Assembly: GCA_039028635.1 (NCBI GenBank)
Contig: JBCCHV010000031.1
Location: 1 to 64,000, forward strand
DNA: 64,000 bases
Source of the DNA: Acidobacteriota bacterium
GTDB taxonomy: Bacteria; Acidobacteriota; Thermoanaerobaculia; Multivoradales; JBCCEF01
Direction of reading: 5' to 3'
Below the pieces are notes generated by a model, which was not told the origin of the DNA, ran no database searches, and was given only the letters and a program-made list of their open reading frames with translations. A program made the translations under genes and the position numbers. Shown here one piece after another: positions 4,635-56,641 of the stretch. Position 1 is the first letter of the stretch; each line of letters starts with the position of its first letter.

Positions 4635-5960
4635 ATGAAGAAAGTCCTGATTCTCGGCGCCGGCCAGAGCGCTCCCCTGCTGATCCGCAACCTGCTCGCC
4701 GACGCCCTCGAGCACGACTGGCAGGTCACCGTCGCGGACCGCGACCGCGAGGCCGCCGAGCAGCGAGTGGCGGACCATCCGCGCGGTCGAGCCATCGCCT
4801 TCGACCTCGAGGCCGATGCTGCCGAGGTGACCGCGGCCGATATCACCGTCAATCTGCTCCCACCGTTCCTGCAGGCGCCGGTGGCGGAAGTCTGCCTCGC
4901 CGCCGGCAAGCCGATGGTGTCCGCCTCCTACACGGCGGCCGCGACCCACGACCTCGACGCCGAGGCACGCCGCCGGGGAGTCCTGATCCTCACCGAGATC
5001 GGTCTCGATCCGGGGATCGACCACATGTCGACGATGGAGCTCCTCGACCGGCTGCAGGCCGCCGGCACCACGGTCGAGTCCTTCGCCTCCTACGGCAGCG
5101 GCGTGCCGGCCCCGGACTCGATCTCGAATCCGCTCGGCTACGCCATCACCTGGAATCCGATCAATGTCGCCCTCGCCGCCCGCGACGGCGCCCAGTTCCT
5201 GCGCGCCGGAAGGCGGCAGATCACTCCCTGGAACCGCATCTTCGAGGACGCCTGGACGGTCGACGTGCCGGGCATCGGCGCGATGGACGCCTACCCCAAC
5301 CGCGACTCCCTGGCCTATCGCGAGATCTTCGGCCTGCACCACAGCCGCACCCTGATCCGAGGCACCCTGCGCCATGCCGGCTACTGCGCCATTTGGCGCC
5401 ATCTGGTGCGCCTCGGCCTGCCCAACGACGCTCTGCCGATCCCGGGCCTCGGGGAGATGAGCTACGGCGCCCTCACCGATCTGTTCCTGCCCGACGACGT
5501 GGCCGGTGGCAGCGTCGAAGAGCGTGCCGCATCGTTCCTCGGCTTGGCCTCCGACAGTCAGGAGCTGGCGGCCTTGAAATGGCTCGGACTGTTCGACCAG
5601 GAAGCCGCCGTTGGCGGCGGCGAGACCGCCTGCGATGCCCTCGTCGCCCTGTTGCAAGACCGACTCACCCTGCCACCGGGAGGCCGCGACATGGTCATCC
5701 TGCACCACGAGCTCGGCCTCCGTCATCGCGACGGTCGGCAGGAGCAGCTGACCTCCACCATGGTCGAGTACGGGGAACCACAAGGCATCACCGCGATGGC
5801 GAAAACGGTCGGCCTGCCGGCGGCGATCGCGACCCGCCTCATCCTCACCGGCGACCTGCGCGAGAGCGGCGTGCGGATTCCGACGGAAGCGGTCTTCTAC
5901 CGCCCCATCCTGGCTGAGCTGGAGCAAGCGGGGGTGCGCTTCACGGAGCGCACGGCGTAA
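4635..5960 (+). CDS. Saccharopine dehydrogenase family protein (probable glutamate-forming)
   Basis: The 441-residue protein has an N-terminal Rossmann fold (LILGAGQSAPLL, residues 6-17) and the saccharopine-reductase core motifs VNLLPPFLQAPVAEVCL, VSASYT, and TEIGLDPGIDHMST. It also has the GEMSYGALTDLFLP region of the C-terminal dimerisation domain. The family interconverts saccharopine and 2-aminoadipate semialdehyde plus glutamate in lysine metabolism; carboxynorspermidine-type relatives also exist. No lysine-ketoglutarate reductase partner is in the window, so the direction (catabolic or other) is unknown. Start: ATG at 4635 (MKKVLILG), placing the Rossmann glycines at the usual position; the longer frame upstream has no domain character. 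Confidence 0.85.
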   Translation: MKKVLILGAGQSAPLLIRNLLADALEHDWQVTVADRDREAAEQRVADHPRGRAIAFDLEADAAEVTAADITVNLLPPFLQAPVAEVCLAAGKPMVSASYTAAATHDLDAEARRRGVLILTEIGLDPGIDHMSTMELLDRLQAAGTTVESFASYGSGVPAPDSISNPLGYAITWNPINVALAARDGAQFLRAGRRQITPWNRIFEDAWTVDVPGIGAMDAYPNRDSLAYREIFGLHHSRTLIRGTLRHAGYCAIWRHLVRLGLPNDALPIPGLGEMSYGALTDLFLPDDVAGGSVEERAASFLGLASDSQELAALKWLGLFDQEAAVGGGETACDALVALLQDRLTLPPGGRDMVILHHELGLRHRDGRQEQLTSTMVEYGEPQGITAMAKTVGLPAAIATRLILTGDLRESGVRIPTEAVFYRPILAELEQAGVRFTERTA

Positions 5961-5969
5961 CTTCGGCCC

Positions 5970-6401
5970 TCAGGGAGCGACGCAGCGTCCGGCTTCGCAG
6001 CGCGCCGCTTCCGGCGGTGCCGGGCAGCGGCAGACGCCACCGCCACAGGCCAGCTCCCGGTGGCGCTCGACCAGCCGCCCTTTGAGCTCGGTGTCGAAGT
6101 CCGTCGCCACGGCGTACCAGCATCCGCCGAGGCCAGTGTCGCAGTTGCCGGCCTCGACGCGGCAGTCGGAGTCCTGCTGGCAGGCAGCGGAATCGTCCAT
6201 CAGGCCTTTGTAGGCGGTGATGACCGTGTCGCAGTCGGCCAAGCTCGAGACGTCGAGGGTCTCAGCAGCCGCCGACTCGGCGCTCGGAGCGGGCTCGGCG
6301 GCGGCCGTAGCCGGGGGGGTCGAAGGAACTCCTCCGCAGGCCGAGGTGATCCCGGCCACCAGCACCAACCCGGACAACAAGCCAAGAGATGGAAGTCGCA
6401 T
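5970..6401 (-). CDS. Cys-rich secreted lipoprotein, unknown function
   Basis: The 143-residue protein opens with MRLPSLGLLSGLVLVAGITS followed by ACGG, a lipoprotein-type signal with Cys at residue 22 or so; the lipobox (I-T-S-A-C) is imperfect. An Ala/Pro/Glu-rich linker (about 25-50) leads to a compact domain with about ten cysteines (DCDTV, CQQDSDCRVEAGNCD, GGCW, ACGGGVCRCP, CEAGRC), suggesting several disulfides. Similar DSDC-type cysteine clusters occur in myxobacterial and acidobacterial surface proteins. It converges on the saccharopine dehydrogenase gene with a 9-bp gap and is divergent from the esterase gene with only 36 bp between starts. Start chosen for the signal peptide; the much longer open frame upstream is antisense to the esterase and methyltransferase genes. 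Confidence 0.65.
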   Translation of the reverse strand: MRLPSLGLLSGLVLVAGITSACGGVPSTPPATAAAEPAPSAESAAAETLDVSSLADCDTVITAYKGLMDDSAACQQDSDCRVEAGNCDTGLGGCWYAVATDFDTELKGRLVERHRELACGGGVCRCPAPPEAARCEAGRCVAP

Positions 6402-6437
6402 GGCCGGCAGTCTATCGGCTCGGCTATCATCCCGCCC

Positions 6438-7091
6438 ATGAATCTGCTTCATACCGCTCATATCCCGGCCGGCGACGGACCGTTTCCAACTCTCTTCGTT
6501 CTTCACGGCTGGGGCGCCAGCGCTCACGATCTCCTCGGCCTGGCCCCCTGGCTGCACGGCGGTGAGGCCCTCGTGCTCAGTCCCCAGGGCTCGATCCCGG
6601 TTCCCCTCGGCGGTGGCGTCGAAGGCTACGGCTGGTTCCCCCTCGACCCCGGCGGACCACCCTCCGAGGAGGTGTTCGACCAAGCCCGGCGTGAGCTTCG
6701 GCAGTTCGTCGATGGCGCCTTCGAGAGCTTTCCCATCGACCGCCGGAAAGTCGCCGTCCTGGGCTTCAGCCAGGGAGGCGTGATGGCCTACGACCTGGTG
6801 TTGGGAGCGCCGCAGGAATTCTGCGGCTTGGCGGCTCTGTCCTCTTGGCTCCCCGAAAGCCTCGCCGCCAGCCATGCTGCCGCCGAAGACCATCAGGAGC
6901 TGCCCACCCTGGTTGTTCACGGCACCGAGGACTCCGTGATCGCCGTCGAGCGCGCCCGTGAATCGCGTGAAGCCCTGCGCCCCTTCGGGGTTTCGCTGAC
7001 CTACCGGGAGTTCGACATGGGGCACGAGATTCGCCCCGAGGCCCTGGCCTTGCTCGCAGACTGGCTCGGCCGTCGGGTCTTTCCCGGCTGA
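6438..7091 (+). CDS. Alpha/beta hydrolase, phospholipase/carboxylesterase family
   Basis: This 217-residue protein has the alpha/beta hydrolase layout of the carboxylesterase/lysophospholipase (YpfH/EstB-like) group. It shows LFVLHGWGASAHD (oxyanion loop), the nucleophile elbow GFSQGGVMAYDL with Ser in G-x-S-x-G, the acid at VVHGTEDSVI and the histidine at DMGHEI. It has no signal peptide, so it is cytosolic. Substrates would be short-chain carboxylesters or lysophospholipids (family knowledge). Start: ATG at 6438. Only 36 bp separate it from the divergent lipoprotein gene; TATCAT at 6425-6430 could be a -10 element that would leave almost no leader. Confidence 0.85.
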   Translation: MNLLHTAHIPAGDGPFPTLFVLHGWGASAHDLLGLAPWLHGGEALVLSPQGSIPVPLGGGVEGYGWFPLDPGGPPSEEVFDQARRELRQFVDGAFESFPIDRRKVAVLGFSQGGVMAYDLVLGAPQEFCGLAALSSWLPESLAASHAAAEDHQELPTLVVHGTEDSVIAVERARESREALRPFGVSLTYREFDMGHEIRPEALALLADWLGRRVFPG

Positions 7092-52092: not shown

Positions 52093-52117
52093 AAAAAGGG
52101 CCGCCCGCAGGCGGCCC
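52093..52117 (-). terminator. Rho-independent terminator of secreted paralog 1
   Basis: Read on the minus strand, GGGCCGCC (52110-52117) and GGCGGCCC (52098-52105) form an 8-bp stem with a 4-base loop, followed by TTTTT (52093-52097). It is almost identical to the terminator at 53052-53076. Confidence 0.85.
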
Positions 52118-52192
52118 TCAGAAGCCGAACCTTGCTCGAGCTTCAGCGGCGGTCCGGCACTCTGGTCGGCATTACGAGCTCAGAAAAGAACC

Positions 52193-52798
52193 TCAGCCCG
52201 GCGGCAAGACGACGACCAGCCGAGTCTCCGCAACCCGTACGAAGTGGTTGTGGTCCGGGGTCGGATTGCCGAGGGCGTCGGACGAGCTGGTCGCCCAAAC
52301 GCCGTCCTTGCGCAGTGCCTGGACGAAGTCCCACGGCGAGACCTCCGGATCGAGGGTGACATCGAGGACGAAATGGTTCGATGCACCGGCGTCTATCGAG
52401 GCCGTCACGCGCGTCAGATAGCCATGCCAGTTGGTGTCGTCGGCGGCCAATCCAAGGTCCTCGGCGAGATCGGCGATCTCACGACCGGGGGTCTTGGCGG
52501 ACCGGAAGTCCACCCAGCTCAGGGGCTCACCGGAGGCGGTGTCGTAGTTGATCACGCGGGTGACCGCCAGCAGTCCCTCCACCGGTGGCAAGGCCACGAT
52601 GCAGGAGTCGTTGGGGTCGACTTCGGTGGTTTCATAGCCCTTGAAGACGATCTTCGCCTTGTTCGGCCCATCGAACTCCACCGTCGTGGTGCCTGTGAAC
52701 CCATTTGGGTCGATCACAGGTCCCATACAGCCGAAGACGGCAGGAGCAGCGAAGAGAGCGATGGCGGAAGCAATCGCGATGCGGGTGAATAAACTCAT
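52193..52798 (-). CDS. Secreted protein of a tandem paralogous family, copy 1
   Basis: The 201-residue protein has a Sec signal (MSLFTRIAIASAIALFAAPA, cleavage before CMGP). The mature part is shared with the two neighbouring paralogs: KGYETTEVDPNDSCIVALPP, NYDTASGEPLSWVDFRS, TNWHGYLTRVTASIDAG, NHFVLDVTLDPEVSPWDF and TSSSDALGNPTPDHNHF. It looks like one all-beta domain with a helix near PGREIADLAEDLGL. The residue after cleavage is Cys, but the A-F-x-C context is a poor lipobox. No known family is recognised. Start: AAGGAGAG precedes the ATG at 52798. A sigma-70 promoter and a strong terminator bracket it. Confidence 0.75.
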   Translation of the reverse strand: MSLFTRIAIASAIALFAAPAVFGCMGPVIDPNGFTGTTTVEFDGPNKAKIVFKGYETTEVDPNDSCIVALPPVEGLLAVTRVINYDTASGEPLSWVDFRSAKTPGREIADLAEDLGLAADDTNWHGYLTRVTASIDAGASNHFVLDVTLDPEVSPWDFVQALRKDGVWATSSSDALGNPTPDHNHFVRVAETRLVVVLPPG

Positions 52799-52843
52799 CA
52801 GTCTCTCCTTTTGAATCGAGTGGGGAGATTCCCACCTATCAAA

Positions 52844-52871
52844 AGGATATACATAATTTTTAAAACGTCAA
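52844..52871 (-). promoter_or_regulatory. Promoter of secreted paralog 1
   Basis: Minus strand TTGACG (52866-52871), 16-bp AT-rich spacer, TATCCT (52844-52849). The same spacing and an AT-rich spacer are found before paralogs 2 and 3. The rest of the 52799-53149 gap contains the paralog 2 terminator and no gene. Confidence 0.65.
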
Positions 52872-53051
52872 TAGTAACTGTTTAAACGAATTCGCATTTC
52901 CGGCGATCCGGCAGGCCGCCCACGCTCGACGAGCACTGCACGAGGGGCAGCAAACGACGGCCTCCGCCAGAAGCCTGAATGATCAGAAAGGGCTCCCCAA
53001 TCGGGCTCCGTCGGTGACCGTTTCAATCCCGGCGACGCGGCGTGGGAAACG

Positions 53052-53076
53052 AAAAAGGGCCGCCCGCGGGCGGCCC
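53052..53076 (-). terminator. Rho-independent terminator of secreted paralog 2
   Basis: Minus-strand stem GGGCCGCC (53069-53076) with GGCGGCCC (53057-53064), loop CGCG, followed by TTTTT (53052-53056). Near-identical to the terminator of paralog 1, as expected from a whole-unit duplication. Confidence 0.85.
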
Positions 53077-53149
53077 TCGGCGACCTGACTCTGCTGGAAT
53101 CTCAGCAGAAGTCCGGCACTTGGGTCGACTTCATGAAGTCGCCACAGCC

Positions 53150-53761
53150 TCAGTTCGGCGGGAAGGTCACCACCAGCTCCGTATCCGCAACCCGCAGGAA
53201 GTGGTTGTGGTCCGGGGTCGGATTGCCGAGCGCGTCGGACGAGCTCGTGGCCCAGACTCCATCCTCGCGCAGCGACTGGACAAACTCCCAAGGCGTGACA
53301 TCCGGATCGAGAGTGACATCGAGGACGAAGTGGTTCGGTGAACCGGCTTCGACGGAGGCGGTCACGCGGGTCAGGAAGCCGTGCCAGTTGGTGTCGTCGG
53401 CGGCCAGGCCGAGATCCTCGGCGATGTCGGCGATCTCGCGACCGGGTGTCTTGGAGGACCGGAAGTCGACCCAGCTCAGGGGCTCACCGGTGGCGGTGTC
53501 ATAGTTGATCACGCGATTGACCGCCAACAGGCCGTCCACCGGCGGCAAGGCCACGATGCAGGAGTCGTTGGGTTCGACTTCCGTGGTCTCGTAGCCCTTG
53601 AAGGAGATCTGCGCCTTGCCCGGCTCGACGAAGTTGACGGTGGTCGTCGGAGTTCCACCCTCGGTGGGAATGATGATGATGATGATCATGCAGGCGAAGG
53701 CGGAGGGGGCAGCGAAGAGGGCGATGGCGCAGGCGATGGCGGTGCGGATGAGTGACTTCAT
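53150..53761 (-). CDS. Secreted protein of a tandem paralogous family, copy 2 (poly-Ile)
   Basis: The 203-residue protein is the closest relative of copy 1: same signal peptide type (MKSLIRTAIACAIALFAAPS), and near-identical YETTEVEPNDSCIVALPPVD, TNWHGFLTRVTAS and TSSSDALGNPTPDHNHF blocks. It differs right after the predicted cleavage: the mature N-terminus is CMIIIIIIPTEGG, six isoleucines encoded by an ATC/ATT triplet run. Such a hydrophobic run at a mature N-terminus is odd and could extend the membrane segment. Start: AAGGAGAG before the ATG at 53761; the in-frame extension to 53908 runs through its promoter. Confidence 0.75.
   Translation of the reverse strand: MKSLIRTAIACAIALFAAPSAFACMIIIIIIPTEGGTPTTTVNFVEPGKAQISFKGYETTEVEPNDSCIVALPPVDGLLAVNRVINYDTATGEPLSWVDFRSSKTPGREIADIAEDLGLAADDTNWHGFLTRVTASVEAGSPNHFVLDVTLDPDVTPWEFVQSLREDGVWATSSSDALGNPTPDHNHFLRVADTELVVTFPPN
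53668..53690. repeat. GAT trinucleotide run inside secreted paralog 2
   Basis: Consecutive GAT triplets (read as ATC/ATT Ile codons on the minus strand) encode the hexa-isoleucine stretch. The other two paralogs lack it. Slipped-strand changes in copy number would alter the number of isoleucines in frame. Confidence 0.75.
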
Positions 53762-53807
53762 CAATCTCTCCTTTTCAAAAGCAGCGGGCTCATTCCCACT
53801 CGCCGAA

Positions 53808-53835
53808 ATAATATCCAGATTTTTCGAAATGTCAA
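53808..53835 (-). promoter_or_regulatory. Promoter of secreted paralog 2
   Basis: Minus strand TTGACA (53830-53835), 16-bp spacer, TATTAT (53808-53813), close to consensus. The transcribed leader shares GGCGAGTGGGAATGAGCCC with paralog 3. Confidence 0.75.
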
Positions 53836-54042
53836 TAATGCATAAATAAAGATAGCCCTCCCGGTGGCCCGGATTCCGCGACCAAGGAAGCAGGGCCTCA
53901 CGGGGCATAGGAGAGCGTGCACGAGGGCTCTTGCCCGTCGCCTCGCGGCACCTGCAGCTGGCCGGGAGGAGTGCACATCCCTTCGAGGGTCATCGGCCTC
54001 GTGCCGTCCATCCTCGAGTCAGTCCTGGCAAGTTTTGGGGGT

Positions 54043-54079
54043 GGAGCCGGAGGTGCCCCTCGACGGACACTCCGGCTCC
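54043..54079 (-). terminator. Possible terminator of secreted paralog 3
   Basis: A perfect 10-bp stem (54043-54052 GGAGCCGGAG with 54070-54079) begins 13 bp after the stop codon of paralog 3. No T-run follows, unlike the terminators of paralogs 1 and 2. Confidence 0.4.
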
Positions 54080-54092
54080 GAAGAGAGGATGG

Positions 54093-54710
54093 CTACGGCT
54101 GGACCGGCGGGAAGATCACGACCAGCTCCAGACTGGAGACGTGCACGAAATGGTTGTGGTCCGACGTAGGGTTGCCAATGGCATCGGACGAGCTGGTAGC
54201 GAAAATACCGTCCGAGCGCAGAGCCTGGACGAAATCCCACGGTGACACTCGAGGATCGAGCGTCACCTCGAGGATGAAGTGATTCGGCGTACCGGCCTCG
54301 ATGGAGGCGGTGACTCGGGTGAGGAAGCCGTGCCAGGACGTGTCATCCGGTACCAAGCCCTGATCCTCGGCGAGACGAGCCAGCTCGCGGCCCGGAATCT
54401 TCGCAGCTCCGAAGTCGACCCAATCGAAGGGCTGGCCGGTGGTGCTGTCGTAGTTGACGACGGTCTCGACTGCCAGCACCCCGTCCACCGGCGGCAACGC
54501 CACGATGCAGCTGTTGTTCGGTTCGACGTCGGTCGTTTCGTAGCCGGTGATCGAGATCATCGCCTTGCCCGATTCCGGGAACATGATAGTTGCGGTCGGA
54601 ATGGTCTCATTGATACAGAACGGCCAGCAGGACTGCATGCAGGCGAAGGCGGGGGTGGTCACGACGACCCCCAGAAGGGCGATGGCGGCGATAAGGGAGA
54701 GGCGCTTCAT
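54093..54710 (-). CDS. Secreted protein of a tandem paralogous family, copy 3
   Basis: The 205-residue protein is the most divergent of the three. It has a signal peptide (MKRLSLIAAIALLGVVVTTP, cleavage before CMQS) and extra cysteines after it (CMQSCWPFC). The shared core is present: GYETTDVEPNNSCIVALPPV, SWHGFLTRVTASIEAG, NHFILEVTLDPRVSPWDF and TSSSDAIGNPTSDHNHF. Conserved Asp/His/Asn clusters (DHNHF) could bind metal or ligand, but this is a guess. Start: AAAGGAG precedes the ATG at 54710. Its own promoter lies at 54760-54787. Confidence 0.75.
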   Translation of the reverse strand: MKRLSLIAAIALLGVVVTTPAFACMQSCWPFCINETIPTATIMFPESGKAMISITGYETTDVEPNNSCIVALPPVDGVLAVETVVNYDSTTGQPFDWVDFGAAKIPGRELARLAEDQGLVPDDTSWHGFLTRVTASIEAGTPNHFILEVTLDPRVSPWDFVQALRSDGIFATSSSDAIGNPTSDHNHFVHVSSLELVVIFPPVQP

Positions 54711-54759
54711 GAGAGCTCCTTTCGGAGAGCTGAGGGGGCTCATTCCCCACTCGCCGATC

Positions 54760-54787
54760 ACTATATACAATTATTTCGAATAATCAA
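54760..54787 (-). promoter_or_regulatory. Promoter of secreted paralog 3
   Basis: Minus strand TTGATT (54782-54787), 16-bp spacer, TATAGT (54760-54765), followed by the GGCGAGTGGG leader shared with paralog 2. Confidence 0.65.
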
Positions 54788-54852: not shown

Positions 54853-56253
54853 TCAGCGCAGATAGCCGAGGGCGCGCAATTCTTCGAGCGCTTCCGCCGA
54901 GGGCTTCGCTCGCGGATTGGAGAGCTCGCCACGGGCCTGCTCCCAGCGCAGCAGGTAGCGCCGGAGACGCGGCTCCTCGGGATGGCTCTCGGCGGCCTCA
55001 TCGGCCGCCAGGTTGTGTTCCTCGAGCGGGTCCGAAGCGAGGTCGTAAAGCTCCCAGCGGTCGGCGATGAGATCGTGGATCACCTTGTAGGAGCCGTCCA
55101 CGACGGCGGTCTTGAAGGCCGTCTTCCGCCCCGCCCGCCCGGCGGCCGCCGTCAGATCGTCGAAGGCCACCTCGGCACGAACCGGTTGGCTGGTCGGCTC
55201 CTCTAGGCCGCGAATCCAGCCGGCGAGGGACCTGCCGGCGAAGCCCTCGGGACGCGCCACTCCCACCAGGTCGAGAATCGTCGGGGCGACATCGATCAGA
55301 GAAACCGGCTCGTCGAAGGACTGGGCGCCGCCGCCCGGCAGGCGCATCAGCAGCGGAACGTGAATCAGCTCCTCGTAGAGGGTGCGGGTGTGACCGAGCC
55401 AGCCGCGACGTAGGATCTCCTCGCCGTGGTCGGCGGTGACCACCAGCAGCGAGCGATCGACCAGGGCGCGTTCGACGAGGCCGTCGACGAGGGCACCGAC
55501 GGCGGCGTCGGTCGCCGCCACCTCTTCCCGGTAGAGTCCTTCGAGGTAGGCGACGTCGGCGGTGGACAAGTCGGCACCGGCATTCCGCAGATCCCAGATC
55601 GGCATGTCCGGCACCAGCGCACCGCCATAGCCGGAGGTGCGATCGAACTCCGGCCGATGCTGGTAGACGTAGTGGGGATCGAAGTAGTGAGCCAGCAGGA
55701 AGAAGGGGGCCCCGTCGGGCTGCTCATCGAGCCAGGCGAGGGCCGCCGCGGTCACCGCCTCGGAGGTGATGGTGCGATGACCACCGGCCAAGGAGTCGTC
55801 GTGATGGGAGAAGCCCTGGCCGAAACCCAGATCCGCAGACAAGAGGCGGTGACTGACGATCGCGCCGCTGCGATAGCCGACCTGCGTCAGCACCTCAGCG
55901 AGGGTGAGTCGGTCCTCCGCCAGAACATCGAATAGCCGCAGCACGCCGTGCTCCGACGGTAGCCGTGAGGTCAGCAGCGAAGCCACCGACGGCTGGGTCC
56001 AAGGGGCCGGAGAGTAAGCCCGCCGGAAAAGCACTGCTTCGTCGGCGAGGCGATCGAGCCGCGGCGTTGGCGAAGGGAAGGAGCCGGCGAAGGCACCGAC
56101 GTTCTCGGCGCCGAGGGTGTCAATGATCACCAAGACGACGGACGTGCGCTCGGCCTCCGGCCGAGGAGCACACTGCCAGAAGGCCAAGACGGCCAACAGC
56201 AGAAACAAAAACGGCGGGCTCGAAAGCCCGCCGCGGTAAAACTCCTTCGCCAA
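54853..56253 (-). CDS. Sulfatase / alkaline phosphatase superfamily hydrolase, membrane-targeted
   Basis: The roughly 466-residue protein has an N-terminal hydrophobic signal (PPFLFLLLAVLAFWQC) and the sulfatase-superfamily core. The first metal Asp is in VVLVIIDTLG, the nucleophile region is SPAPWTQPSVASLLTSRLPS, and the last metal pair is in VVTADHGEE with LGHTRTLYEE and IHVPLLMRLPG. The nucleophile position is Thr (TQPSV), not the Cys or Ser of C/S-x-P-x-R, so formylglycine is not expected; it may be a phosphoesterase or transferase. Start uncertain: TTG at 56253 just inside the rplQ stop region is the first candidate, and no ATG precedes the core. An rplQ terminator overlaps its first codons. 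Confidence 0.8.
   Translation of the reverse strand: MAKEFYRGGLSSPPFLFLLLAVLAFWQCAPRPEAERTSVVLVIIDTLGAENVGAFAGSFPSPTPRLDRLADEAVLFRRAYSPAPWTQPSVASLLTSRLPSEHGVLRLFDVLAEDRLTLAEVLTQVGYRSGAIVSHRLLSADLGFGQGFSHHDDSLAGGHRTITSEAVTAAALAWLDEQPDGAPFFLLAHYFDPHYVYQHRPEFDRTSGYGGALVPDMPIWDLRNAGADLSTADVAYLEGLYREEVAATDAAVGALVDGLVERALVDRSLLVVTADHGEEILRRGWLGHTRTLYEELIHVPLLMRLPGGGAQSFDEPVSLIDVAPTILDLVGVARPEGFAGRSLAGWIRGLEEPTSQPVRAEVAFDDLTAAAGRAGRKTAFKTAVVDGSYKVIHDLIADRWELYDLASDPLEEHNLAADEAAESHPEEPRLRRYLLRWEQARGELSNPRAKPSAEALEELRALGYLR
56207..56232 (-). terminator. Rho-independent terminator of the ribosomal operon, overlapping the sulfatase-like 5' end
   Basis: Minus strand GGCGGGCT, loop TTCG, AGCCCGCC (56213-56232), followed by GTTTTTG (56206-56212). 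It is 26 bp past the rplQ stop and is the natural end of the alpha operon. The same bases encode GGLSSPPFLF of the downstream hydrolase if that starts at 56253. Confidence 0.85.
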
Positions 56254-56257
56254 CGTC

Positions 56258-56641
56258 CTAGCTGTCGGCTTCGCCCCGAGTCTCGTCGTAGTCGACGAAC
56301 TCGAGCACCGCCATCTCGGCACCATCGCCCTGGCGAGGCCCGAGCTTGATGATGCGGGTGTAGCCACCGGGACGATCCTCGAATCGCGGCGAGATGACGT
56401 CGAAGACCTTCTTCACCACCGTCCGATCGTCGATCCAGGTGCGCACCCAGCGCCGCGCCTGCACCGAGTCGGTACGGCCGCGGGTGACCACCCGCTCGGC
56501 CAAGCGACGCAGCTCTTTGGCCTTCGGCAGCGTGGTGATGATGCGCTCGTGCTCCATCAGAGCGTGGAGCTGGTTCCGGAACATGGCGCGACGGTGCGCG
56601 CTCGTCCGCCCCAGCTTACGATTCTTCATTCCGTGACGCAT
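56258..56641 (-). CDS. rplQ: 50S ribosomal protein L17
   Basis: The 127-residue protein has the L17 signature MRHGMKNRKLGRTSAHRRAM, NQLHALMEHERIITTLPKAK, LRRLAERVVTRGR and a C-terminal GGYTRIIKLGPRQGDGAEMA. It binds 23S rRNA near the exit tunnel. It follows rpoA by 9 bp and closes the alpha operon; a rho-independent terminator lies just downstream. Confidence 0.97.
   Translation of the reverse strand: MRHGMKNRKLGRTSAHRRAMFRNQLHALMEHERIITTLPKAKELRRLAERVVTRGRTDSVQARRWVRTWIDDRTVVKKVFDVISPRFEDRPGGYTRIIKLGPRQGDGAEMAVLEFVDYDETRGEADS

Follow-up and report, generated by a model that had tools for sequence, protein, structure and literature searches.

The closest described counterparts of the proteins considered here are beta-sandwich domains of several kinds. 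Type II cohesins (PF00963; SdbA, PDB 2bm3/2b59/5m0y), which dock dockerins, are nine-stranded jelly rolls whose strands 6 and 7 are separated by a helix. MSCRAMM-type adhesin domains, including CNA (1amx/2f68) and ACE19 (2okm), are exported beta-sandwiches. TTHA1873 of Thermus thermophilus (PDB 7wrk/7wwn) is hypothetical by its own title, and no papers on it were found in the literature. Some exported proteins are also substrates of exosortases and end in an IPTL-CTERM tail (PF18203). Against this background we analyzed three tandem genes in a window of 64,000 nucleotides from an Acidobacteriota bacterium. The trio is a real, functional-looking set from an unnamed and rare exported family. Our best explanation, held with about equal belief and doubt, is that the three are exported, disulfide-tied beta-sandwich proteins with a binding or structural role, which is a function that we infer, and that they have been kept as a tandem array. 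The genes and the repeats that link them are as follows.

52193..52798, minus strand: paralog 1 (P1), 201 aa; signal peptide ending in VFG before Cys; mature protein of ~178 aa, pI 4.4
53150..53761, minus strand: paralog 2 (P2), 203 aa; signal peptide ending in AFA before Cys; mature protein of 180 aa, pI 4.2
53669..53686, minus strand: (ATC)n microsatellite, ATG(ATC)5ATT, coding for IIIIII in P2
54093..54710, minus strand: paralog 3 (P3), 205 aa; signal peptide ending in AFA before Cys; extra CX3C pair (C5 and C9 of the mature protein)
Repeat D1: 300 nt, three copies, spacing 957/949
Repeat D2: 92 nt, spacing 963
Repeat D3: 88 nt, terminator region, spacing 959
Repeat D6: 31 nt, promoter, three copies, spacing 964/952

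These are three tandem paralogs, as an earlier note on this DNA had described; their reading frames are intact and all on the minus strand, and every core motif that the note quoted (GYETTEV, SCIVALPPV, WHGxLTRVTAS, TSSSDA-x-GNP, DHNHF) is present. The start of P2 was taken as the ATG at 53761; the start of a longer 252-aa frame is mechanical. The three proteins can be aligned end to end, with 78% identity between P1 and P2 and 59% between P1 and P3. The units are spaced ~0.95-0.96 kb apart, and the DNA repeats stay in register across promoter and gene in P1-P3 and extend into the terminator region for P1 and P2. The transcription signals lie around the genes in the following order.

52097..52118, minus strand: P1 intrinsic terminator, a stem followed by a T-run (found from sequence and fold, not called by the scan)
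52819..52836, minus strand: P1 5' leader stem-loop, GGTGGG-AATCTC-CCCACT
52844..52871, minus strand: P1 promoter, TTGACG-16-TATCCT
53055..53078, minus strand: P2 intrinsic terminator, called by the scan
53783..53800, minus strand: P2 5' leader stem-loop, AGTGGG-AATGAG-CCCGCT
53808..53835, minus strand: P2 promoter, TTGACA-16-TATTAT
54732..54752, minus strand: P3 5' leader stem-loop, GAG(T)GGGG-AATGAG-CCCCCTC
54760..54787, minus strand: P3 promoter, TTGATT-16-TATAGT

A promoter scan recovered the promoter with a 16-bp spacer that had been claimed for each gene, and promoter-like sites are enriched in the 5.5-kb region (5 seen against 0.7 expected from shuffling); the P1 and P3 promoters agree with the consensus at just 9 of 12 positions. 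A Shine-Dalgarno site accompanies the promoter and open frame in each case, and the signals support separate transcription units as predicted from the DNA. The terminators of P1 and P2 are indeed near-identical (a 22-nt stem with 95% identity, followed by a T-run), while the 3' end of P3 has a strong, GC-rich hairpin that no T-run follows. Consequently, the proposal that promoter, gene, and terminator were duplicated as one unit is borne out for P1 and P2 only, P3 lacking the common terminator. That the genes might be silent remnants is countered by the intact frames, the Shine-Dalgarno sites, the promoters, and low dN/dS. No high-expression codon bias was seen, codon adaptation being 0.67-0.77, like that of ordinary genes in the window.

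Right after the -10 box, a GGGAAT...CCC stem-loop is found in all four leaders of the genus (P1-P3 and the sister-species gene). That the sister species has it too points to some constraint, and it may simply have been inherited along with the duplicated promoter. Given its place near the predicted transcript start, the G-rich hairpin could act as an mRNA stabilizer or a regulator site. Against shuffled leaders the hairpins show no clear gain in stability (z -0.6 to -1.9), a covariation test would need more than the four sequences, and Rfam gave no match for the leaders, with a single chance-level match inside the P2 gene. A genome-wide regulon was considered and rejected: among the best 30 of 38 sites, no other leader-like site has an AT-rich upstream region, and AT-rich promoters elsewhere in the genome lack the hairpin.

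The trio proteins are predicted to be exported, small, and acidic. By inspection, all members of the family have a signal peptide with a small-X-small site before the Cys, which agrees with the signal peptidase I rule (a hydrophobic stretch, then small residues at -3 and -1); the site reads AXA or VXG in four of four genus members and AXA in most of the homologues. Lipoproteins were rejected, as the sequences VFGC, AFAC, and AFAC of P1-P3, with Phe at -2, fail the lipobox [LVI][ASTVI][GAS]C. All 12 aligned homologues share two Cys, one immediately following the signal peptide and the other about 45 residues further along (C24 and C68 of P2). Because mature P2 has no further Cys, a disulfide between C1 and C45 would be the simplest arrangement. 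The extra CX3C pair is common to P3 and the sister-species gene. No family in Pfam, NCBIfam, or PHROGs matched the trio (Pfam had nothing at E<=1 for P1-P3), in keeping with the earlier description of an exported family of no known function.

Profile searches covered 72 genomes of the order, 149 of the class, and 396 of the phylum. Homologues were found in seven sampled genomes (7/149 for the class), patchily distributed, with one to three copies per genome; in the searches made, the family is confined to that one Acidobacteria-type order, and because only a few candidates per genome are scored in the deeper samples, distant relatives may have escaped detection. A pattern scan of ~85,000 species genomes returned four loci, which are those of four of the seven family genomes. 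A phage origin was rejected since viral contigs hold no relatives, and a plasmid origin since there was one chance-level match; a match of one homologue to Flagellin_IN falls below the cut-off of that family. In the titles and abstracts of the literature, no Thermoanaerobaculia work bearing on the family was found.

The relatives differ in how the domain is deployed. In two other species (G016 and G023), a tandem pair lies ~40-50 bp apart in an operon-like arrangement and lacks separate promoters like those of the window. In the tree of this pair, a groups with a and b with b, and the pair predates the species split. Tandem duplication has occurred in the family at least twice, independently. 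In G005 and G040, the domain forms the front (N-terminal) part of longer exported proteins of ~400-800 aa. A third G040 member (L039, G040:C85:22862-23428) fronts a ~500-aa frame on the same contig as a 396-aa member, and the longer members have a second Cys-containing domain in common (SNGDGWLE...). The homologue in G007 has a sorting-like C-terminal tail, VPALGSGGLAVLGLMFLMAVWIGIRR, and its genome carries exosortase genes, which recalls the IPTL-CTERM substrates. However, the tail scores 14.3 bits against PF18203, below the curated cut-off of 20.8, and no such tail is present in P1-P3.

AlphaFold2, run with nine sequences, predicted an all-beta sandwich with two helices both for P2 (mean pLDDT 75, pTM 0.70) and for a remote family member (mean pLDDT 73, pTM 0.71). 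In the P2 model there are nine strands, and a helix falls between the sixth and the seventh; the remote-member model adds a strand and is ordered differently there. The Foldseek neighbours are beta-domains of adhesins, cohesins, carbohydrate-binding modules (CBM), and aminopeptidases. For neither model was there a match at E<=0.001, and TM-scores were at most 0.45 among the matches listed. CNA, ACE19, and a C. fimi cellulose-binding domain are neighbours of both models at low TM-scores. The MSCRAMM-type domains are among the better neighbours of both; however, their TM-scores are 0.21-0.41 with E >0.001, and the window proteins have no cell-wall anchor. TTHA1873 matches the P2 model with a Foldseek probability of 0.98-1.00 and a TM-score of 0.40-0.42 by target length, but with 13-14% identity and E-values of 0.0016-0.0034, and it is not among the matches listed for the second model. 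The models and their neighbours fix the predicted fold class, not the family.

The helix between strands 6 and 7 of the P2 model brings to mind a free-standing module resembling a cohesin, one that would dock with a partner in the way that type II cohesins do with dockerins. Profile searches gave weak, near-top matches to NagJ (E 0.09) and to type II cohesins (E 0.13-0.9), and six of the seven family genomes, this one among them, encode dockerin domains. This similarity is not significant against permutation controls, on which cohesin membership was dropped: the HHalign score against type II cohesins, 17.1, falls inside a column-permuted null (n=100; mean 10.4, sd 2.2, max 19.5), and the score against 28 PF00963 domains from the order itself is 13.6, with a null maximum of 22.8. 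Pfam Cohesin matched neither P1-P3 at E<=1 nor the homologues at E<=5, TM-scores to cohesins are ~0.3, and the second member's model departs from the cohesin order at the helix. Unlike type II cohesins, the window proteins are stand-alone and have an N-terminal Cys tie. A weak match of P1 (E 0.33) to a cohesin-bearing 842-aa frame in its own genome is in an inconsistent register and was taken as chance. The trio proteins could possibly work like cohesins, and we judge the docking module to be decidedly improbable. Slimmer still is the chance that order-restricted, exported, disulfide-tied, cohesin-like docking domains, occurring both as tandem stand-alone proteins and at the front of large exported proteins, make up an undescribed envelope assembly system. 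A reading of DHNHF as the site of a metal-binding or enzymatic protein seems improbable as well. One His is nearly invariant across the 12 aligned homologues, and the HxH of DHNHF with nearby conserved Asp/His residues is invariant in the genus's four proteins; however, outside the genus the motif is reduced to a single [GDA]-H, and no enzyme family was matched. With a single His conserved across the family and HxH seen in this genus only, DHNHF is at best a weak candidate for a metal site.

Two further alternatives turn on how the genes have evolved. The earlier note had taken them for a surface or effector family under diversifying selection, pointing to the mature N-termini. These have diverged, with the first 30 mature residues strongly different among copies. 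We calculated dN/dS by the Nei-Gojobori method for all pairs, including the sister-species gene. In the mature N-terminus (residues 24-55) the ratio is 0.25-0.85, reaching 0.85 in P2/P3, but no mature region exceeds 1 and the core stays at 0.19-0.24 in every pair. The sole value above 1 (2.3, in the P2/P3 signal peptide) comes from just 2.5 synonymous differences. The six isoleucines of P2 come from a simple (ATC)n repeat. When the two species of the genus are compared, identity is 59-64% for the family, 56% for the sulfatase, 58% for a kinase, 70% for the M50 protein, and 86% for rpoA; since its divergence is about equal to that of the neighbouring sulfatase and kinase, the family is not unusually fast. 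A host or effector context is also absent. Selection on the family is purifying, with a looser or relaxed N-terminus, and the diversifying reading has little chance of being right. It is also unlikely, if less strikingly so, that these are ordinary lineage-specific exported proteins without strong individual function, kept for dosage. The rarity of the family, its low copy number, and its patchiness within the order would fit, but purifying selection has acted on all copies over a long time (dS ~0.5 for P1/P2 and 0.76-1.3 for the remaining pairs). In the tree, P1 groups with P2, and the placement of P3 and the sister-species gene is left unresolved.

We return to exported, disulfide-tied beta-sandwich proteins. 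The intact frames, the AXA-type site before an invariant Cys, and the promoter and ribosome site of each gene can be read from the DNA. In the mechanism we propose, the signal peptide would be removed between AXA and Cys, and the new N-terminal Cys would pair with the second invariant Cys in the oxidizing periplasm or outside the cell, tying a flexible N-terminus to the beta-sandwich domain. This domain would have a binding and not an enzymatic role, serving in the envelope or outside the cell as a structural or ligand-binding module; its ligand would be a guess. Having tandem copies would increase the dose and leave the N-terminal region free to vary on a conserved fold. The core dN/dS of ~0.2, the invariant Cys residues, the inspected signal peptides, the two all-beta models with their adhesin and carbohydrate-binding neighbours (at low TM-scores), the homologues at the front of exported proteins, the sorting-like tail of the G007 homologue in a genome with exosortase genes, and the independent tandem pair in two species all speak for this explanation. 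Since no Foldseek match reached the E-value threshold and TM-scores are low, it is the predicted fold class by itself that suggests a binding domain. We count against the explanation the moderate confidence of the models, the lack of conserved functional neighbours of the family, none being found outside the genus, the sub-cut-off tail in G007, the predicted nature of export and disulfide, and leader hairpins not clearly above shuffles. The trio is nothing extraordinary, and the general picture of biology is unchanged. The family now has clear boundaries (two invariant Cys, one His, a beta-sandwich, and a signal peptide), which suits it well to structural and secretome studies in bacteria that have received little attention.

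The trio is flanked by one gene for an M50-like protease and one for a sulfatase-like protein, identified as such by inspecting translations, and adjoins a block of ribosomal protein genes and rpoA. In G001, the one other sampled species of the genus, a single family copy occupies exactly the same slot. The sulfatase-like gene (54853-56367 of the window) is kept in this sister species; its active-site region reads APWTQPSVASLLT, in which the usual Cys/Ser-x-Pro-x-Arg was not seen by eye. Elsewhere, a Pfam cohesin domain over the cut-off lies in an 842-aa frame (L098, G000:C12:24522-24794), and 39 of 59 relatives encode comparable domains, for the most part within frames 800-1000 aa long; dockerin domains are present as well. 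A hairpin resembling that of the trio leaders, GAGGGAATGATCCCTC, lies at G000:C4:38811-38824 (L132), immediately upstream of a gene whose product is a thioredoxin-like exported protein (MARSILLSLVLLVVALPLAAADG...WCGSCKK), but without an AT-rich promoter. On contig C53 of the same genome as the trio, two near-identical AT-rich promoters (TTGACATTATAATAARTACTTAT) lie ~4.9 kb apart (L119 and L120, ~C53:1000-1700 and 5900-6600). The first is followed by a gene for another exported protein (MLKKCCWTLTLAALLIAVPAFAANDFIAAG...), and the two look like another duplicated gene pair with its own promoters.
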